From: a virus
IMG/VR virus record: IMGVR_UViG_3300025645_000446
Coordinates: 1-23,839 of that record
Length of the DNA: 23,839 nt
Direction: 5' to 3' (one strand)
Below, piece by piece: positions 2,553 through 19,182 of the stretch. The position numbers and the translations under genes were made by a program. Under the pieces are notes generated by a model that worked only from the letters and a program-made list of their open reading frames with translations, was not told where the DNA came from and ran no database searches. Position 1 is the stretch's first letter. Each line of letters starts with the position of its first letter.

Positions 2553-2745
2553 ATTGGACCTTGCTTCTGAGCGGGAAGAGTTTGCCCGTACCCATGCCCG
2601 CAATGTGCGTAAGCCCGAGGCCCCTGCGGCAACGGGACTCTGCCTGTACTGCGACGAGGACGTTGCATCTCCCCGCCGCTGGTGCGACACCGATTGCCGT
2701 GACGCTTGGGATAAGCGCAGCAAACTCAATAGGAGTACGCAATGA
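2542..2745 (+). CDS. Small zinc-ribbon protein
   Basis: 67 residues with four cysteines in a C-x2-C-x10-C-x3-C pattern: Cys34, Cys37, Cys48 and Cys52 (CLYC ... RWCDTDC). The block RRWCDTDCRDAW is typical of small phage zinc-binding proteins whose role is not known. The N-terminal 30 residues are charged and probably disordered or helical. AAAGGAG at 2528-2534 supports the start at 2542, although this lies inside the preceding gene by 11 nt. The stop overlaps the start of the PrtN-like gene as ATGA. It may bind DNA or protein; the sequence does not decide. Confidence 0.7.
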   Translation: MPDELDLASEREEFARTHARNVRKPEAPAATGLCLYCDEDVASPRRWCDTDCRDAWDKRSKLNRSTQ

Positions 2746-2996
2746 TTACATCCTTAGCCTTGATGTCGATCTACAAGACGCCAACCATTCCGCTGTCAGA
2801 AGTGTGCGAGCGTTACTTCAGTTTGTCTTACGAAGAGGCCCTGAAAAAAGCAGCACGCAATGAACTGCCAGTGCCAACATTTCGCCTGACCAGCAGCAGG
2901 AAGTCGCCCCTGATGTTAAGTGCAGAAACACTCGGCCAGTGGATCGATGCAACCGAAGCTGCGGCCCGTGCGCAGTGGGAGCGGAGCCAAGTGTGA
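2742..2996 (+). CDS. PrtN-family DNA-binding protein, candidate excisionase
   Basis: An 84-residue protein that follows the PrtN (pyocin activator) family pattern: an N-terminal LMxxY-x-x-P-x-I-P-L-x-x-V motif, then YFSLSYEEALKKAARNELPVPTFRL, a wing-like SSRKSPLML turn and the helix LGQWIDATEAAARAQWE. PrtN activates pyocin genes in Pseudomonas, but many phages carry a copy beside the integrase, where a recombination directionality or control role is more likely. Here it is the last gene before the attachment region and its end touches the first GTGCATCA repeat. The start overlaps the previous stop as ATGA and AGGAG lies just upstream; Met8 is a less likely alternative start. Family call is good; the excisionase role is inference from place and size. 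Confidence 0.75.
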   Translation: MITSLALMSIYKTPTIPLSEVCERYFSLSYEEALKKAARNELPVPTFRLTSSRKSPLMLSAETLGQWIDATEAAARAQWERSQV

Positions 2997-3043
2997 TGCA
3001 CTTTCTTTACCCGAAACTGGGGCAAAGCACACCGTTCGGTGCA

Positions 3044-3184
3044 TCACAGCAAAGAGGAAATCTCAAAACCCGCACGGAGTAACGCTTTTGGCAGAGGCTG
3101 CTTCGCATCCATCATCGGGGCCACACAGATTCTACGACCCTTTTTTTTCGTGGTAACTAGTTGATTTTTAAAGGCTTCATTCAT
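3044..3184 (-). CDS. Short frame supplying a dusA-like 5' end
   Basis: A 46-codon frame read leftwards from ATG at 3184 to TGA at 3044. Codons 17-26 read RRICVAPMMD, close to the conserved start of tRNA-dihydrouridine synthase A (typically R-R-L-S/C-V-A-P-M-M/L-D-W-T-D-R-H). Before this it has a short basic leader ending TTKKKG, and after Asp26 it goes on as AKQPLP with no DusA likeness, ending soon. After recombination in the core, the phage-encoded first 26 codons would be joined in frame to the rest of host dusA, restoring a start codon. In the free phage it probably makes nothing useful. No convincing ribosome site precedes the ATG. Confidence 0.5.
   Translation of the reverse strand: MNEAFKNQLVTTKKKGRRICVAPMMDAKQPLPKALLRAGFEISSLL
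3107..3133 (-). other. attP: Putative attP core for dusA integration
   Basis: On the minus strand these 27 bases encode RICVAPMMD, which matches the N-terminal conserved block of DusA, while bases on either side do not continue the match. A family of tyrosine integrases is known to insert prophages and islands into the 5' end of dusA, with a core of about 20 bp inside this block. The integrase gene starts about 200 bp away and GTGCATCA repeats flank the core on both sides. Phage genes lie on both sides, so this is an intact attP and not attL or attR. The exact crossover point cannot be set from one sequence. Confidence 0.7.
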
Positions 3185-3200
3185 GCTTTATGCTGGTTTC

Positions 3201-3206
3201 TATAAT
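3201..3206 (+). promoter_or_regulatory. Candidate -10 box of the integrase gene
   Basis: TATAAT is a perfect -10 hexamer in the only AT-rich stretch between the att core and the integrase start. The -35 region (about 3176-3183, TTCATTCA) is poor, so the promoter may be weak or activated. Transcription from here would give a leader of about 130 nt holding four GTGCATCA copies. On the opposite strand the same region offers TAAAAT (3205-3210), a possible -10 for the dusA-like leader; this is weaker. Confidence 0.35.
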
Positions 3207-3264
3207 TTTATTTGGTACTTAACCGGGTAAAAAAGGGTATTTCTTGGGCTGGAGTGCATCAAAT

Positions 3265-3300
3265 GGTGCATCATAGAGGCCTTGATGCACCGCCTTTTTA
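3265..3300 (+). promoter_or_regulatory. Inverted repeat in the integrase leader
   Basis: GGTGCATCA (3265-3273) and TGATGCACC (3283-3291) form a perfect 9-bp inverted repeat with a 9-nt loop, followed by GCC and a run of five T (3294-3298). It could be two arm sites in opposite orientation, an operator, or a weak intrinsic terminator or attenuator in the integrase leader. The three bases between stem and T run weaken the terminator reading. Confidence 0.4.
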
Positions 3301-3341
3301 GGGTTTGGTGCATCATCCCCTACCCACCCAAAGGAAATAAC

Positions 3342-10035: not shown

Positions 10036-13000
10036 TTACTTGCTGCCTGGGCTCGGCGTGCCGGTCACCAGGCCCCGTGCAGCGTCGAGCGGGCTGGTTG
10101 GGTTGACCTTCCCGCTTTCCAGTGCAGCGATGTAGCCGAGGGGTCGTGCAATCGCCGTGGCTGGTAGGCCGGTCAGCAGGCTGATGGCGCTCGCCACATC
10201 GCGTACGGCGTTGCGCTTGTTCAGCTTGTCGGGATCGGTGATTGCCATGTAGACGTCCTTCGGCACACCGACCGCCGCCTCGAGCATGCTGACCGCAGGC
10301 GACAAGCTCATCTTGTCGTCGGCCGGGTTGTTGTTGAAGCGATTGATCGCGGCGTTGCCGAGCGTGCCCACGAATGGAATCATCGCGAGCGTGCCCTTGA
10401 TCGTGCCCATGCCGAACACCGCAGCCAGCCAGTCGTCCAGGTAGCCGTCATCGTCCTTATCGTCCGGGCCCCCGCGCATCGCGATAGCGATTGCCTCGGC
10501 GGTCCAGAGTGGCACGAGCATGCCCAGCGCCACGATGCCGAGCATCTTGCCGGCGCCCTTCTTGACACCCATCTCCTGCGATACCTGCTTTAAGCTGGTG
10601 GCGTTGGTGTTGGCCATCATGTTGAAGTAGCCGATGAACTGCGTGAACACCCTGGCGTAAGCAGGACCCGTCTCGATCCGGCTCACATCCTCCGGCAAGG
10701 TCGAGCCCTGGGTCTGGCGGATGAGGCCATCTGCGTAGCGCACGGCTTCCTTCTCGCTCATGTTCTTTTCGAGCGCTGCGTTGTAGCCGGCGCTCCAGAT
10801 GATCGGCTCCATCGTGTTGGCCAGTGCGCTTTGCAGGAAGTAGGCGTGCTTCTGGGTCCAGGCCTGTGCCTTCTGGTACAGGTTCGGGTCCAGCAGGATC
10901 GCGTCCATTGCATCATTGATGGCCGAGATCTCGTTCTCCATCCGCGTGGCCATGAACGGGCTGGCATCGCTCACTGCCTGGGCCGACTTCCTCGGGCTCG
11001 TGATGAACTGCGCGGTGGCCTTCATCATGTGCGACTCGAGGCCATCGGCTTTGAGTTTAGAAAAAGCCGTCGAGAAGCCGGTGAGCTGCTGGATGGCGTT
11101 GCTGATATTGCCGAACATCAGCGCCATGCCTGCACGGCCTCGAGCTGCTGAGAGCACGCGGGAGATGCCGCCGTCGCCCACGATTGGGGTCTCGACGATC
11201 TGGCGTGCGCTGCGGTTGAGCCAGGGCGTCAGCATGCCGGCGTAGATCGTTGGGTCGATGCGACCGAGCGAGTAGCTCACGCCCTTGCGGGACAGCAGCT
11301 TGTTCACATCGCGCACCGCTGGCTCCATGTGCGAGAACAGCAGCACCTTGTCGATGTGCTGGCCGATGGTGCGCAGGTCCAGTAGCAGCGGCCGGTTGTA
11401 TTCGACGCGGCCCTTGGTGAAGCCTTTGTTGGTGCCTGGGAATGAGAACGCCATGTTCTCGTTCTCGGTCGATGCGAGATCCCGCAGAGCGGCATCCTGC
11501 ACAATGCGCGGGTCAGCTTGTGCTGGCACGTAGCCGCCACGGTAGGTGCCAAAAGGCGTCTCGAACTCGTCCGCCGTGACCTCGGCAAAGTAGCGACCGA
11601 ACACATCGCGGTGCGTCTTTTGGGCCAGGGGCTTGGTCTGCTCGAGCAGGTCCCACACGCCTTGTGCGAAGGTGTAGTGGTCGCCAGTCAGGACGCCGGT
11701 CGACCACATGCGCTGGATAAAGTTGTCCCAGTCCGTGGTGTCGAGCGTGCCGTCTTCGTTCTCTGTCGCCCACTTGCGACCCAGCAACAGCTTGCGCTTG
11801 TTGGACTCGTTGCCGGTGTGCAGGATCGCGTGGAGCAGCTCAGCGTGGCCGATGCCATTGTGGCCCTTGCCGAACGTGTAGTTCAGCTCAGGGGCGGCGA
11901 TGGTGCCCTTGCGCAGGTACGGCGCGACCTTGTCGACCAGTGCCTGGTAAGCCTTGCGGTACTTCACCCGGTCAGCCCGGTAGGCGTTGGCTGCATCCTT
12001 GATTGGCTGGAATACCAGCTTCGTGAATGCGGAGCCCATTCCATCGGCCCACTGCTCTGCACGGCGAAGCAGCGATCCAGCAAACTGGAGCGCCCGGCCA
12101 GCGGCCTCGCGCTTCGTGATGGCGCCGGTCTCGCCTGGCATTGCGTCAGGTACACCGATTTCCTGCATGCGCTCTTGGAGCTGCTCGGCGGCGTCGTCGA
12201 TCTCCATCATGTCGCCGTCGACTTCCATCTGGCGCGAGCGCTTGGCCAGGTGCCACATGGCCTGGATCTCTTCGTGCAAGCCGCGCAGCTCTTCCATCGT
12301 CAGCGCGTCCAGTGGCTGCGCCATGTTGAGCGCACCCTGCACTGAGGATTGCAGCGCGGCGAACATGGCTGGGTCGTTCTTGGCGACCAGGTCCATGTAC
12401 TCGGCGGCGTTCTTTGCGCCCTTCGGTGCGATACCGTAGGCGCCCAGGATGGCACGCGCTGCGTTGACGACGTCAGGATCGCGGCCCTTCTCGACCGTTT
12501 TCTCGTTGCCGTCTTTAATGACGCGCTTGAAGAACGTCAGGATCTTGCGCATTTCTTCCTGCGCTTCGACTGCCGCCTTGGCTGCGGCGTTATTGAGCAC
12601 CTGGTCCTGCTTGGCCTTGACGGCTTCCTGGGTCTCGCCCTTGGCCGTGTGTTCCTGCCAGCGCTTGCCGGCACGACGCTCGGCCGCGGTGTGCTGCACA
12701 ACCTTGGATTTCAGATCGCGCAGTGGGGTGCGTGCGATCACGTTGGCAGCGAACTGCTTGGCTGCCTCGACGATGGCGTTAACCGTGATCTTGCTGCCCT
12801 TCGCGTTGACTTCACCGGTGTCGGTGCGCGGGTTCAGCATCTCTGCCTGGCTGCGCAGCTCGGTTGCCAGGCTGCGTGCGCGGGCTTCGTTGTGGACGGC
12901 TTCATTGGCCGCTGACGCAATGGCACGCTGGTCGATCAGGTCGCCATGTTCCTCGAGCATGCGTTGATCCGTCATGCCCTCGACAACGCTGGCCATTGGC

Positions 13001-16000
13001 TCGGCAGTCAGTAAGCTGCGGACCAAGGCGTCTCCACTTTCGAAGCCAAACATGTCGGCAATGATGTCAGGATGGACGCCATCCGTACCGGCTAGTTTCT
13101 GGTCAGATAGCGTTTTCCAGTCGAGGAGTGCGTACTTGTCGCCTTCGCCCATGTACATCTCGCTCAAGGTCGCGGTGTCGAGCTTGGTGTCGGTCTTTAA
13201 AAACTGTCGCGCTGCGTAGACTGGCTGGGCTCCAACCTCGGCGCGGATCTCGGCCTCGACACCCTTGCGCAATTCGGCAGCCTGCTTTTGCAGCGCCTTG
13301 ATTGCTTTGCTGCGGGCGTTTACGGTCCACTTCAGATCGCGCAGCGAGCGAGCTGTCAGCTTCTCGACTGCCTCGGCGGTGGCGTTTTCTTCAGGTAGCA
13401 GGCCGGCGACCTGCTCGGCTTCGGCGATCTGTGCCTCGCTGGCCAGCATGCGGTCGAACACCTGGCGCACTTCGTCGGAGAGCTGGACGTCGCCTTCCGG
13501 GTGCGCTGCGATGAATGCCTTCAGCGATTTGTAAACATTGAGCATCCACGCCCGGAACTTACGGAACAGCGGTTGCAGCTCGACGCTCGGCGCCTTGCCC
13601 TCGAGCAGGTACTGCTCGAAGGACTCGGCGAAGCGTTCATGGTATGGGCGCTTCTGGTCCAGGCTCATGGCATTCCATGTAGCCAGGTCAGCGATGCCAA
13701 ACCACTTTGCAAGCTCGGCCATGTCCGACTGGATGTCGGCCGGCGCGTCGGGTTGGCTGGCCAGGTCGGCCATCACCTCGAGGAAGAAGTGGCCAGTCTC
13801 ATGCAGGAACGTGGAGAGGTCGGCGTTCTCATTGAGCGCCAGCTCGAGGGTCTTCGGGTTGAAGGTGCCGCGTGCCCCCTGGAACAACGCCTGACCGCCC
13901 ATGACCAATTCGCGCATGGCGTCGGTGATGGTGAAGCCGGCTTGCTCGGCAATTTCTGGTGCAGCACCTTCTTGCGCGATTTCGTAAAGAGCCATGCTAG
14001 CCTGCTCGTATTCTCGTGAGCCAACTTCGCTTTCGTTTCGTTGTTTGAGAAGTCTTTCACGTTGACTCTTAAACGCAATCGTCTCGATCTTCCCGCCACC
14101 GAGTTTTTTCAATACGTCATTGGCTGTCTGCGGCACGATCTTGTCGTAGAAGGACTTCATGCCTTCGCCGCCAACTTTCAGATCTTGGTTCTCAAGGTCC
14201 ACAAACCCGCTGGCATCAGGTGTTCTCGACAAAATCCGCTCTGCAATTTCTTTACCCACCAAGTCGGAAAGGTCTGCATCACTTACGTTTGATTTTGAGA
14301 CGACTTCCTGACGACGAGCATCGTAGGCTTTAAGCTCACCACCAAGCCCATTGGTTCCGGGCAGCCACACAATGCGGTCAACCTGCTTGCTCAAATTATA
14401 GCGATCAGCAGACTGCTCGCCGTTAACAAAAGCGACCTTGTCGTAGCCGTTCTCGGCTGCGTAGCGAATCATTCGCTTGATGCCGAGCGAGAGCCAGGCC
14501 TTGGTCTCGCCGACGAATGGGGCGGTGGGAACACCGATTTTGAGGACGCCGAGTAGCTTTGCTTTCTTCTCAACCTTTTCAAGGCTTCCGTAGGCAAGCG
14601 GCAGCGAGCTTTCTTTATCCCGCAAATGGTAGAACCCCGGCTCTTGCTCAACCAGAGAATAGCCATCCATCAACTTGTCGCCGAATCCCCTCTTCCGCCC
14701 GTCCTGCGCCCAGTCGGATTGCAGCTCCTCAATGAACAGCACCTTCTTGCCATCGGCATCGATGCGGTCATTGAAGCGGATGTGGGCGAGGATGTTCTTT
14801 TCTTCCCAGTGGTTGGACCGGTAGTCTGTCGAGGGCTTGCCGCTAGGTTTCCAGCCCTTTGACAAAGCGACGGCGTCATAGTCGGCGGGGTTTGTGAAGC
14901 CGTAATAGGCCTCTGGGTCCTCGCCAAGGCTGCGCAAGAAATCCCTGGCATCAGTGTTAGTGCTGCCGCTCGGTAGCGTCAGCAGCAGCTCGCGGTAGTT
15001 CTCGCCACCGGGTAGTTGGTAGCCCGCGTACTTTGTGCTATCCGTCTGCTCTTGCCCTGCTTCAATGTATTCAGATGGTGAGCGGTTATCGCCAGCTTCG
15101 GATAATTTTTCTTCAAGGAGAACTCCAGCTTGTCGAGCCATCTGCGAGTCCGGCGCGCTAGTAAGCCACTGGTCAAGCGCCGACTGCGCGTCTATGTCAA
15201 AGCTGCCCCCGGCTTCCATCGTCTCGCGCATGTCATCAGCAGCTTGCTGGCGGGCCGCAACCGGATCGGCCTCACCCTTCATCACCTCATCAACCTGCAC
15301 GCCGTTGGCTGCGAGGTAGTCGCTGATCTCTTGCTTGGTGACCTGGTCTTTGCCTCGGAGCTCAAGGTATTCACGCAAGCCGGTCCATTCGACCTCTTCG
15401 GCCTTGACGCCGGGCAGCTTGGTGATGATGGCGAGCCAGTCTTTAGCTGGCGCCTTGGATTGCTTTGCGCCCTCGACAGCGCGTGACAGCGCCGAGTAGA
15501 AGGTCGGGGACTGGTTTAGGACTCCGTCGGATTCGTTACCGGCGTTGTAGATTTCTTCGCCGAGAGGTACTCCTCCTTCAGCTGGGTCAGAATCTTCATC
15601 TTCGTCTGGGGACTCGAGTTCTGAAATATCGATTCCGTTGTTTCGGGCATCGACGACGATTCTTGCTGCTTCTTCGTAGCTGATTTTGCCGGAGGATCTT
15701 GCGCCAAGTTCGCCATATAGTTTTTTCTCGTAATACCACAGGATTGCCTGGATGTCGGCAATAGACAGATTATACCCTTCAGCTGCCAGTTTCTTCTGGG
15801 CTGCGTTGGTCGCATCCAGCATGAACGTGCGGTCTTTTGCACCGAATGGGGCATCTTCCAAGTTAACAAAAGCCATCTTGTAGATGGTGTTTGCAGCACG
15901 TTCGATGTTGTGTTCTTTGTACAGCTTGTCGAACTTGGCGCCAGCCAGCCGTTTGGCTTCCTCCATCCAAGCGACTTTCTCGGCTGTCTTGCCCGGCTCT

Positions 16001-19000
16001 GACTTGCCGACCATCACTGCCAGCTGAGTCTTAAAGCCACGGGCTTCCAGTGCAGCCTGCGGTTTGAGAACCGCCTGCAATACCCTGTCATCGCTCATGC
16101 GCGGCTTGCCAATGAGAGCGGCAAACGTGCGCAGGCTTGAATCGCTCGGCTTGGTCAGCAGGCCACCGCGATAACGGTTGAACGTGCGCGACCACCAGCG
16201 GTCCATTGTCAGGTAGCCGTGCGAGCCCATTAGGTTGGCATAGAACGCACCGAGCTTTGGGCCCAGGGCAACGACTGCCATTGGCATCTTGATGATGGCC
16301 TGGTAATCCGATTTGAGTTCTGTGCCGTTGGCCTTGGCGATCTTCTTTAGATCCGAGATGGATTTCTCGTTCATCAGGAAGTCGCGCATACCTTCTGCGC
16401 CCAGCTCATCGAACAGATTCTGCAAAACCTCAAGGTTGCCGTCGATGCTGTCCTGGCGCTGGTGTCCGATGTCGGTGGTGAACTGGCCTGTCTCGCGGAA
16501 ATTCGCGTAGATGTCCATCGCCTGATTTGTATTGCCCATCACCTTCTGGCCATCTGAAGTGATGGCGATCAGTGAGGTCATCACATCGCGGGCATTCTGG
16601 TCGGTCAGCAGCTCAGGGAAGGTTTCGCCCATTGTGTTGAGCGCATTCTGGAATTTCTCCGAATACCAGCCCACGCCGGAGTTCGAAGGGTTCTCCATCT
16701 CAAACTTGACCTCGGCCATGATCCAGTCAGCAATCTTGCTGATGGCTTCCTGGCTGCGGTCATCGCGGGCGATGCTGCCGTACTTCTCGAGCTGGCGTGC
16801 TTCCAGCGCCTGCGCAATCTGGCGGGTGTTGTACTGCTTGCCCGGCTCTAAACCGTAGGCTTGCAGGGTTTCATCGCCTGCGCGGATACTTGCGGACTGG
16901 TTAAGGACTTGTCTTGCGATGATGCCTGCGCCAACATCACGCTCTGATTCATACCGCACCACATCCTGCATCGGGTACAGGTACTTTTGCCCGCCGGGTG
17001 CAATGTCAAAAGTACTGCCCGGAGGCACCAAGTGCTGTGCCTGCATCTCACGAAACCGAGCCTCGTCAACCAAGATGGGTTCGCCAAGTGTTACTTCGCC
17101 GATGGCTTTTGCCTTGCCAGCGCCGGTACGAACTATCGCGACCCGTTGGCCAACGTAGGGGCGCAATGAATCTGAATTGCGCGTTTCAAAAGTTTTTGTC
17201 CCGTCAACGATGGCATCGGCATACGCCAAGCCTGCGCCCGAGTCGTTGCGGACGTTGATGCCCATTAGCCGACCGTCTTGATTGAAGAAGTCGGCTTCTT
17301 CATTGAGCACCGACCCCTGGCCGGTTTTGCTGACGGGTTTCAGTGAGTACCTTGCCTGCATCTCTTCAGGCGTAATGCCATAACGCCCGGCCATCGTCGT
17401 ATAAAACGCGGTGGTCCAGGTTGCGTAGGCGTCGTTCACATCCTTGCGGAATCGGCCGGCGGTGTTGAGCTGGTCCAATATGGACTGCTTCACGCGGTCA
17501 TGCGACTCCTGCATGGCCTGCTGGTCATTGGCTTGCTGGATGACGCGCTGCGTTTCTTGCGCCAGGAACTCTTCGGCTTTGGCGCCGGCTTCCTTCGACT
17601 CGAACTGGCTCATCGCCCTCGAGTCGCCGATGCGTGAGTGTTCGACCAGGGTCTGCTCGAGCGGGGTGCCAGGGGCAACCGCGAGCACATCGCCAATCGA
17701 AATGGACACTGCGCCATTGGCAGCCAGCGCGGCTTCCATCTGCTCGGCAACGCCTGGCAGTTGTGCCAGCACCTCGGGCGCCAGTTGGTTCAGTACCTCG
17801 GCATCGACGAACACTTCCGTCGGTGCGCCTTCAGTCTGGTCGGCCATTGCCTGGACCAGGGTGCGGAACTCTTCCGGGTTGCGCTCGCGCAGCTTTGAAG
17901 TGGCTGCGGTCTGGATCGAGGATCGAAGCGTCTCTGCATGCGTGTTAGCGTCGTTCTGTTCCTGAGCTCGACGGTTAACGGTTTCCTGCACCTTTGTGAC
18001 TGCGTTACGCGCTGTTGCTGCGCCACCGCCTGCACCGGCTCCGCCCATGAAGGACGCCACGACACCCTCGAGCAACGATTGCGCGTTGTCGAACGACAGC
18101 ATCGTCGCGAGGTTACTGTTGACCTGTTGCAGGGATTCGGTAAAACCTTCACCGAAAATCGCACCGACCACGCCGCGCACGCCCTTACCTTGGGCGCCGA
18201 GTACTTTGTCCAGGCCGGTTTTTTCGAGCCAGCTATTGACCAGTGCGGTCTGCATGGTGGCTTGTGTAAAGTCGGCGTCGCTAATCTTCTGGCCCGTGCG
18301 GCGCTCAAAGTCGGCAGCGCTACTGGCCTGCTCCATGCCCTCCATCCATGCCATGAACGGCACGGAACCGCCAGACTTCATGGCGGTATAAAGCGACGGG
18401 ATAGCCTGGCCAATAAATGCGGTCCAGTAGTTTTTGTCAGTTAGCACCTGGCCGAGCTGGCCTACTTGGCCGGTCTGCACCGCCGTCTTGAGCGCGGTGT
18501 CTGCGTTTTGTGCCAGCTTACGTAGGTCGCTGAAACTGTTGCCAAACGTGGCCGGGTCGTCTGCCAAGGTCTTCGTCGCGGAAGAGATGGCGTCGGCAAC
18601 CTGGCTTGTGCCGGCGAACATTTTCGTACCGGCTGGCAGTTGGCCTTGCGACAGAATGCGCAGGACGTCTTCCAAGCCGCGAACCGGGTTGACGATGGCG
18701 GGCAGGCCGGTCTTTTCAACCAGGCCGGCGACGTAGCCGGTAACACGTTGCGCGGCGTCAGGCGTGCGGAATAGGCTTTCAGATACGCCCAACACCGCCT
18801 GGCTGGCGCCGGCGGCAGCGAGCGCAACAAAACTTGACTCAACCTTTTTGAGTGGCTCGACGTCATCGTGCGCTTGCACGGCAAGGCGTACGCGCTCGCG
18901 CATCTGCTTGGCCAGGATTGGCGAACCCTTCAACGATTCATCGGCCTTGTTGACCGCTGCCTGGAACTCGACATCCATCAGGTTCCGGGCCACGACATCG

Positions 19001-19182
19001 TCCGGAATGCCGGTCTCTTTCGATAGCTGGGTGGCGCGTGCCGCCTGGTCCGGGTTGGTCTTGACCGCAGTCTCGAGGACTGTTTTTAAAGGGATGCCGG
19101 TATCGAGTTGTGCAGAATTCGGGTCAAAGGTGGTGTCGGGGCTGGCAGTGGATGGATCGAAGGTCATTGAGCGGGGTTCCAT
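10036..19182 (-). CDS. Giant ejected polyvalent protein in the T7 gp16 position
   Basis: 3048 codons, over twice the length of T7 gp16, in the slot between the gp15-like gene and the fibre, so probably an ejected internal virion protein. Map by residue: helical N-terminus with hydrophobic patches (about 110-400); ASCH-like domain (about 640-750, with TKTFETRN and GEVTLGEP); an unnamed conserved module (about 755-1200, with MDRWWSRTFNRYRGG near 990); a second one (about 1455-1690, HWEEKNILAHIRF, FIEELQSDW, KVGGEGMKSFYDKI); a zinc-peptidase-like block, HETGH at 1794-1798 with HERFAESFEQY at 1848-1858; a long helical region (about 1880-2860); a hydrophobic stretch (2879-2903); and a C-terminus like the large polyvalent protein-associated domain LPD38. 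The start is uncertain: ATG 19182 has AGGA very close, while ATG 19167 gives an ATGA overlap with the previous stop. Confidence 0.88.
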   Translation of the reverse strand: MEPRSMTFDPSTASPDTTFDPNSAQLDTGIPLKTVLETAVKTNPDQAARATQLSKETGIPDDVVARNLMDVEFQAAVNKADESLKGSPILAKQMRERVRLAVQAHDDVEPLKKVESSFVALAAAGASQAVLGVSESLFRTPDAAQRVTGYVAGLVEKTGLPAIVNPVRGLEDVLRILSQGQLPAGTKMFAGTSQVADAISSATKTLADDPATFGNSFSDLRKLAQNADTALKTAVQTGQVGQLGQVLTDKNYWTAFIGQAIPSLYTAMKSGGSVPFMAWMEGMEQASSAADFERRTGQKISDADFTQATMQTALVNSWLEKTGLDKVLGAQGKGVRGVVGAIFGEGFTESLQQVNSNLATMLSFDNAQSLLEGVVASFMGGAGAGGGAATARNAVTKVQETVNRRAQEQNDANTHAETLRSSIQTAATSKLRERNPEEFRTLVQAMADQTEGAPTEVFVDAEVLNQLAPEVLAQLPGVAEQMEAALAANGAVSISIGDVLAVAPGTPLEQTLVEHSRIGDSRAMSQFESKEAGAKAEEFLAQETQRVIQQANDQQAMQESHDRVKQSILDQLNTAGRFRKDVNDAYATWTTAFYTTMAGRYGITPEEMQARYSLKPVSKTGQGSVLNEEADFFNQDGRLMGINVRNDSGAGLAYADAIVDGTKTFETRNSDSLRPYVGQRVAIVRTGAGKAKAIGEVTLGEPILVDEARFREMQAQHLVPPGSTFDIAPGGQKYLYPMQDVVRYESERDVGAGIIARQVLNQSASIRAGDETLQAYGLEPGKQYNTRQIAQALEARQLEKYGSIARDDRSQEAISKIADWIMAEVKFEMENPSNSGVGWYSEKFQNALNTMGETFPELLTDQNARDVMTSLIAITSDGQKVMGNTNQAMDIYANFRETGQFTTDIGHQRQDSIDGNLEVLQNLFDELGAEGMRDFLMNEKSISDLKKIAKANGTELKSDYQAIIKMPMAVVALGPKLGAFYANLMGSHGYLTMDRWWSRTFNRYRGGLLTKPSDSSLRTFAALIGKPRMSDDRVLQAVLKPQAALEARGFKTQLAVMVGKSEPGKTAEKVAWMEEAKRLAGAKFDKLYKEHNIERAANTIYKMAFVNLEDAPFGAKDRTFMLDATNAAQKKLAAEGYNLSIADIQAILWYYEKKLYGELGARSSGKISYEEAARIVVDARNNGIDISELESPDEDEDSDPAEGGVPLGEEIYNAGNESDGVLNQSPTFYSALSRAVEGAKQSKAPAKDWLAIITKLPGVKAEEVEWTGLREYLELRGKDQVTKQEISDYLAANGVQVDEVMKGEADPVAARQQAADDMRETMEAGGSFDIDAQSALDQWLTSAPDSQMARQAGVLLEEKLSEAGDNRSPSEYIEAGQEQTDSTKYAGYQLPGGENYRELLLTLPSGSTNTDARDFLRSLGEDPEAYYGFTNPADYDAVALSKGWKPSGKPSTDYRSNHWEEKNILAHIRFNDRIDADGKKVLFIEELQSDWAQDGRKRGFGDKLMDGYSLVEQEPGFYHLRDKESSLPLAYGSLEKVEKKAKLLGVLKIGVPTAPFVGETKAWLSLGIKRMIRYAAENGYDKVAFVNGEQSADRYNLSKQVDRIVWLPGTNGLGGELKAYDARRQEVVSKSNVSDADLSDLVGKEIAERILSRTPDASGFVDLENQDLKVGGEGMKSFYDKIVPQTANDVLKKLGGGKIETIAFKSQRERLLKQRNESEVGSREYEQASMALYEIAQEGAAPEIAEQAGFTITDAMRELVMGGQALFQGARGTFNPKTLELALNENADLSTFLHETGHFFLEVMADLASQPDAPADIQSDMAELAKWFGIADLATWNAMSLDQKRPYHERFAESFEQYLLEGKAPSVELQPLFRKFRAWMLNVYKSLKAFIAAHPEGDVQLSDEVRQVFDRMLASEAQIAEAEQVAGLLPEENATAEAVEKLTARSLRDLKWTVNARSKAIKALQKQAAELRKGVEAEIRAEVGAQPVYAARQFLKTDTKLDTATLSEMYMGEGDKYALLDWKTLSDQKLAGTDGVHPDIIADMFGFESGDALVRSLLTAEPMASVVEGMTDQRMLEEHGDLIDQRAIASAANEAVHNEARARSLATELRSQAEMLNPRTDTGEVNAKGSKITVNAIVEAAKQFAANVIARTPLRDLKSKVVQHTAAERRAGKRWQEHTAKGETQEAVKAKQDQVLNNAAAKAAVEAQEEMRKILTFFKRVIKDGNEKTVEKGRDPDVVNAARAILGAYGIAPKGAKNAAEYMDLVAKNDPAMFAALQSSVQGALNMAQPLDALTMEELRGLHEEIQAMWHLAKRSRQMEVDGDMMEIDDAAEQLQERMQEIGVPDAMPGETGAITKREAAGRALQFAGSLLRRAEQWADGMGSAFTKLVFQPIKDAANAYRADRVKYRKAYQALVDKVAPYLRKGTIAAPELNYTFGKGHNGIGHAELLHAILHTGNESNKRKLLLGRKWATENEDGTLDTTDWDNFIQRMWSTGVLTGDHYTFAQGVWDLLEQTKPLAQKTHRDVFGRYFAEVTADEFETPFGTYRGGYVPAQADPRIVQDAALRDLASTENENMAFSFPGTNKGFTKGRVEYNRPLLLDLRTIGQHIDKVLLFSHMEPAVRDVNKLLSRKGVSYSLGRIDPTIYAGMLTPWLNRSARQIVETPIVGDGGISRVLSAARGRAGMALMFGNISNAIQQLTGFSTAFSKLKADGLESHMMKATAQFITSPRKSAQAVSDASPFMATRMENEISAINDAMDAILLDPNLYQKAQAWTQKHAYFLQSALANTMEPIIWSAGYNAALEKNMSEKEAVRYADGLIRQTQGSTLPEDVSRIETGPAYARVFTQFIGYFNMMANTNATSLKQVSQEMGVKKGAGKMLGIVALGMLVPLWTAEAIAIAMRGGPDDKDDDGYLDDWLAAVFGMGTIKGTLAMIPFVGTLGNAAINRFNNNPADDKMSLSPAVSMLEAAVGVPKDVYMAITDPDKLNKRNAVRDVASAISLLTGLPATAIARPLGYIAALESGKVNPTSPLDAARGLVTGTPSPGSK

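Follow-up and report, generated by a model that had tools for sequence, protein, structure and literature searches.

A dusA-type attP carrying a replacement dusA start in an uncharacterised phage group

Repair of dusA by a start that the integrating element itself encodes is already known in principle. Farrugia et al. (2015; PMC4482086) described dusA-associated integrase (DAI) islands and prophages that encode new 5' ends for dusA, assigned about a sixth of the DAI family to targets other than dusA, and listed the phages H66, BcepMigl, BcepIL02, DC1, mEp460 and AH2 as carriers of such integrases. Durand et al. (2021; PMC8409611) found that the element IMEVchUSA3 gives dusA a new promoter and a restored reading frame, with lower expression, and that RdfN is the recombination directionality factor of dusA-specific elements. 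What the locus described here adds is a phage group not characterised before and, possibly, the architecture of its att site.

The locus lies in an IMG/VR record of 23.8 kb, the whole of which is referred to here as the window (features in Table 1). A reading made from the sequence alone had claimed a 46-codon minus-strand frame at 3184-3044, opening with its own ATG and encoding RRICVAPMMD, with no DusA likeness outside that block. The frame is present as claimed; the full peptide is MNEAFKNQLVTTKKKGRRICVAPMMDAKQPLPKALLRAGFEISSLL, of which residues 1-26 end at MMD, and it passes from MNEAFKNQLVTTKKKGRRICVAPMMD into a short tail beyond the core that is indeed non-DusA. In the near-identical contig L002 the frame is intact, with substitutions only. 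The DusA likeness of the peptide is short, ten residues: a Pfam search gave no match, a PDB sequence search gave chance matches only, and DusA (PRK11815) was the sole NCBIfam model matched, weakly (E 0.069) and in the N-terminal register (peptide 10-37 to model 6-33). Such protein-level evidence is weak taken alone, and it is the identity of the DNA core that is decisive. The 20-mer TGTGTGGCCCCGATGATGGA (3127-3108, minus strand) has 15 exact matches in genome_contigs, a genome collection of 257 Gb, where an estimated 0.5 or so would be expected by chance in 257 billion bases. Fourteen of these are at the start of a dusA gene and in the same frame, the fifteenth is in a displaced dusA start, and in Marinobacter shengliensis and SAR92 H921 exact identity reaches 23 bp (3129-3107). 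The core had been proposed at 3107-3133, with which this identity is consistent, and the roughly 20-bp exact match in dusA by which the proposal was to be judged has thereby been found. As in the DAI family, the attP core is identical to a conserved stretch of the dusA 5' end; the leader and core are confirmed as real.

Table 1. Coordinates of the features of the attP region and its flanking genes in the window
Feature	Position	Strand	Evidence or remark
PrtN/RdfN-like gene, probable recombination directionality factor	2742..2996	+	PF11112, E 4.9e-19
Arm-type candidate site (TGATGCAC), PrtN side	2994..3001	+	
Arm-type candidate site, PrtN side	3039..3046	-	
DusA-like leader frame	3044..3184	-	26 codons that would replace the dusA start, then 20-codon non-DusA tail and stop
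attP core	3107..3129	-	matches dusA genes exactly over 20-23 bp, TCTGTGTGGCCCCGATGATGGAT
IHF-consensus site AATCAACTAGTTA, inside leader codons	3154..3166	-	45 bp from core Ala codon
Arm-type candidate site 1, int side	3254..3261	-	
Arm-type candidate site 2, int side	3266..3273	-	
Arm-type candidate site 3, int side, opposite orientation	3283..3290	+	
Arm-type candidate site 4, int side	3308..3315	-	
dusA-type tyrosine integrase, 358 aa	3342..4418	+	PF00589, E 9e-18

The genes that flank the core are also those of the DAI family. The integrase, for which a longer TTG-started frame begins at 3282, is a related tyrosine recombinase in which the catalytic residues are invariant; it is 39% identical to the integrase of H66, and its best phage relatives (34-39% identity) are the six phages named above. 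The integrase alone leaves the choice of dusA as target uncertain, because three of its relatives (L137, L139 and L140) are without a nearby dusA motif and other targets are on record in Farrugia et al. Across attP from int stands the PrtN/RdfN-like gene, whose product is 82% identical to its equivalent in L015.

Given the core identity, the gene set, the conserved layout and the chimeric dusA genes seen in relatives, we infer that the site serves as attP for a temperate phage whose insertion target is the dusA 5' end of its host, where the phage start and codons 1-26 keep DusA made, a reading to which we give a probability of roughly 0.93. The integrase would recombine the 20-23 bp core with the same sequence in dusA, by which the host gene would lose its own start and promoter, and the phage start codon with codons 1-26 would then lead into host DusA from WTDRH on, giving the enzyme a new N-terminus. 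At the other end of the prophage the old dusA start would remain, now continuing into the tail peptide of the phage, and excision would be driven by the PrtN-like protein. The interpretation offered by the sequence-only reading is thus supported as right in kind. Its anatomy is in place, in that the window supplies a start codon and an open frame to the core as an in-frame replacement for the dusA 5' end, as DAI elements do, while the actual joining of such codons to DusA has been seen only in relatives.

Around the core are repeats that may well complete the recombination site. All six copies of TGATGCAC/GTGCATCA in the window fall within 2994-3315, two to the left and four to the right of the core, where 1.36 are expected in the whole window, and a pattern drawn from three of the int-side sites matched nine IMG/VR contigs, in the alignment of which the repeat sites and the core are the best conserved blocks. 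A match to the IHF consensus (WATCAANNNNTTR) stands at the same 45 bp from the core Ala in the window, L002, L014, L015, L126, L129 and L130, its coordinates in the window being derived from the Ala codon at 3121. As a sequence pattern, repeats on both sides of the core with IHF sites between are those of a lambda-like attP, and the flanking repeats are probably arm-type integrase sites and the IHF-like site probably the bending site of the intasome. The IHF consensus was also considered as a general feature of dusA attP sites and rejected, being present only in this phage group. Other dusA-type att regions carry different repeats in similar places (GTAGCAA, GTACCAC, GTGGTAA, GTGCAGA, TGGTACA, GGGAACC and others), and 43 of 52 distinct regions, which are not independent in that many are from related Pseudomonas elements, have three copies of one 7-mer at given spacing, with 0.003 expected in shuffles.

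The GTGCATCA repeats might instead be operators, bound by a repressor or by the PrtN-like protein, and their place, flanked by the divergent starts of leader and int, is one where an operator would be expected. This is rather unlikely, since many elements have such repeats to the left and right of the core, at distances that are conserved, and since among 28 integrases of less than 90% identity (some with imperfectly trimmed N-termini) similarity of the motif tracks the N-terminal domain beyond the catalytic domain, with a partial correlation of 0.43 (permutation p 0.0005) and a reverse partial correlation of 0.29. Arm-type sites are preferred. Neither arm sites nor IHF are mentioned in the main text of Farrugia et al. 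or in the text of Durand et al., and a literature search restricted to sources outside the subscription journals gave no paper that combines dusA with arm-type sites, so the att architecture of arm-type repeats and IHF-like site is possibly new.

Relatives give a view of what becomes of such leaders. All ten related phages that were opened have a VAPM(M/L/I)D leader on the opposite strand to int, divergent from it and 120-210 bp upstream, with an unrelated tail at its end. From IMG/VR 80 further loci were obtained, and in those long enough to tell the leader either stops soon after the core, as in a free phage, or continues as DusA, as in a lysogen. In five of them (L037, L041, L063, L075 and L085) the leader is fused to a complete DusA of about 314 further residues, and both curated DusA cut-offs are passed by three of these five fused genes and by a chimera from a Lysobacteraceae genome (those tested). 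The Lysobacteraceae contig has the chimeric dusA and int at 24.8 kb and the displaced host dusA start, running into a short foreign tail, at 80.2 kb; the two halves, 55 kb apart, fit the attL and attR that a 55-kb element would leave. Modelled with AlphaFold2, the Lysobacteraceae chimera gives a mean pLDDT of 90 and matches Thermus Dus (3b0u, 3b0v), with residues 1-18 disordered and the first strand, FCV, lying within the phage-derived leader. Farrugia et al. (PMC4482086) had earlier come to the same view for other elements, and the enzyme that integration of the present phage would produce would presumably remain functional.

Related prophage integrases had also been expected beside dusA, which holds in good part: of the ten best integrase matches in a sample of 399 genomes from a single order, six adjoin a complete dusA, and three, the L137, L139 and L140 relatives, which possibly have other target genes, do not have a dusA motif nearby. 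The predicted chimeric dusA with a phage leader, and attL and attR at dusA, are likewise seen for related elements, but for this phage group no lysogen was found. Separately, a Rhodanobacter MAG (G003, contig C38, 69.8-72.4 kb) has a displaced dusA start only 2.6 kb from a complete dusA, which may be a dusA element that is very small or has decayed.

The DusA-like leader might be no more than a by-product of a core shared with dusA, in which the identity that recombination requires encodes DusA residues by chance, a functional DusA not being selected for. Codons 1-16 vary freely between phages (three amino acid changes within them separate the window from L002), dusA is dispensable in laboratory strains (PMC4482086), and no clear promoter is found upstream of the leader. 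Against this, an in-frame ATG, GTG or TTG lies 8-40 codons before the core in 35 of 35 loci (those whose frame terminates or is truncated no more than 60 codons from the core, free-phage attP forms included), dusA stays expressed in IMEVchUSA3 (PMC8409611), and in the phage group the start is fixed at -21 codons though the codon itself changes. The distance from this start to the core Ala is exactly 21 codons in the window, L002, L015, L124, L126, L128, L129 and L130, as ATG in the first two and as TTG or GTG in the other six. Because the surrounding codons change while the start stays at -21, it is the frame and the start, and not those codons, that seem to be what is kept, and we regard the by-product explanation as distinctly improbable. 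That imprecise excision left the phage with a piece of host dusA, and not with a working attP, would suit the shortness of the frame's DusA likeness (ten residues) but can scarcely be credited, the same layout of PrtN-like gene, core and int being present in L002, L014, L015 and other phages, with repeats at the same distances across relatives and, in every attP form, a tail past the core without relation to dusA.

It had also been claimed that dusA in the lysogen would gain a new promoter, and that host tRNA modification would thereby fall under phage control sequence. A consensus scan gave no significant sigma-70-like promoter upstream of 3184, the best hexamer pair there (9/12, with a 15-nt spacer) being equalled in 39% of shuffles; the stretch 3134-3260 is AT-rich (36% G+C against 58%). 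Only the analogy with IMEVchUSA3 (PMC8409611) favours the claim, and promoter activity from the phage side may be supposed on that ground.

As for the phage group, the window encodes a giant protein of 3048 aa (10036-19182, minus strand) whose closest relative is in Limnohabitans phage DC33 (42%), which hints at a freshwater betaproteobacterial host; the protein is also related to virion-type proteins of other podovirus-like phages. The likeness to DC33 is in this giant virion-type protein, and unlike the window DC33 shows no integrase in its gene list, by annotation or by inspection. No host or lysogen of the group was found in genome_contigs, in the 399-genome order sample or in a family-level sample of only 5 genomes. 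A genome_contigs search with the integrase protein gave no relative, and in the order sample the core, exact or near-exact, had only three matches, each with 3 mismatches, which gave no host. The contig L015 (IMGVR_UViG_3300034110_000364) is a 41.9-kb phage with a closely related PrtN-attP-int module (integrase 68%, PrtN-like protein 82% identical) and a repressor-like protein. It was rejected as a whole-phage relative: a search with an 899-aa stretch of the giant protein found no match there, and only the integration module is common to both. It would seem that the module passes from one phage type to another, since L015 has it without that match.

Target-gene repair by a phage-encoded start appears general among phages that integrate at dusA, extending to a group with giant virion proteins whose members are known here only through metagenomes, and the constant spacing and changing sequence of the arm sites offer a natural series for comparing the DNA specificities of related integrases. 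A wider conjecture, which we hold to be doubtful, is that all dusA-type integrases use fixed-spacing, lineage-specific arm sites that co-evolve with the N-terminal domain of Int, and that binding of Int or RdfN there also sets expression of host dusA in the lysogen, as could happen because the arm sites occupy the stretch that separates the divergent starts of leader and int. If true, tRNA modification would be coupled to the integration machinery via dusA expression.

Compared with the described systems, the locus shares with the DAI islands and prophages (PMC4482086) the integrase family, a 21-bp core in the dusA 5' end, an element-encoded replacement 5' end and a prtN homologue, found in 64% of DAI elements, whereas the phages named in that paper do not include its group. 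Of the six phages listed above, the five that were opened (H66, BcepMigl, BcepIL02, AH2 and mEp460) likewise have a DusA-like leader upstream of int, but their arm motif, where found, is GTAGCAA, GTAGCAC or GGTTCCCA, and they have no IHF consensus near the core. In IMEVchUSA3 (PMC8409611) too, attP has int on one side and rdfN on the other; the element differs in being an IncC-mobilised Vibrio island and not a phage, and its new dusA N-terminus and promoter are demonstrated, whereas the promoter of the window is putative.
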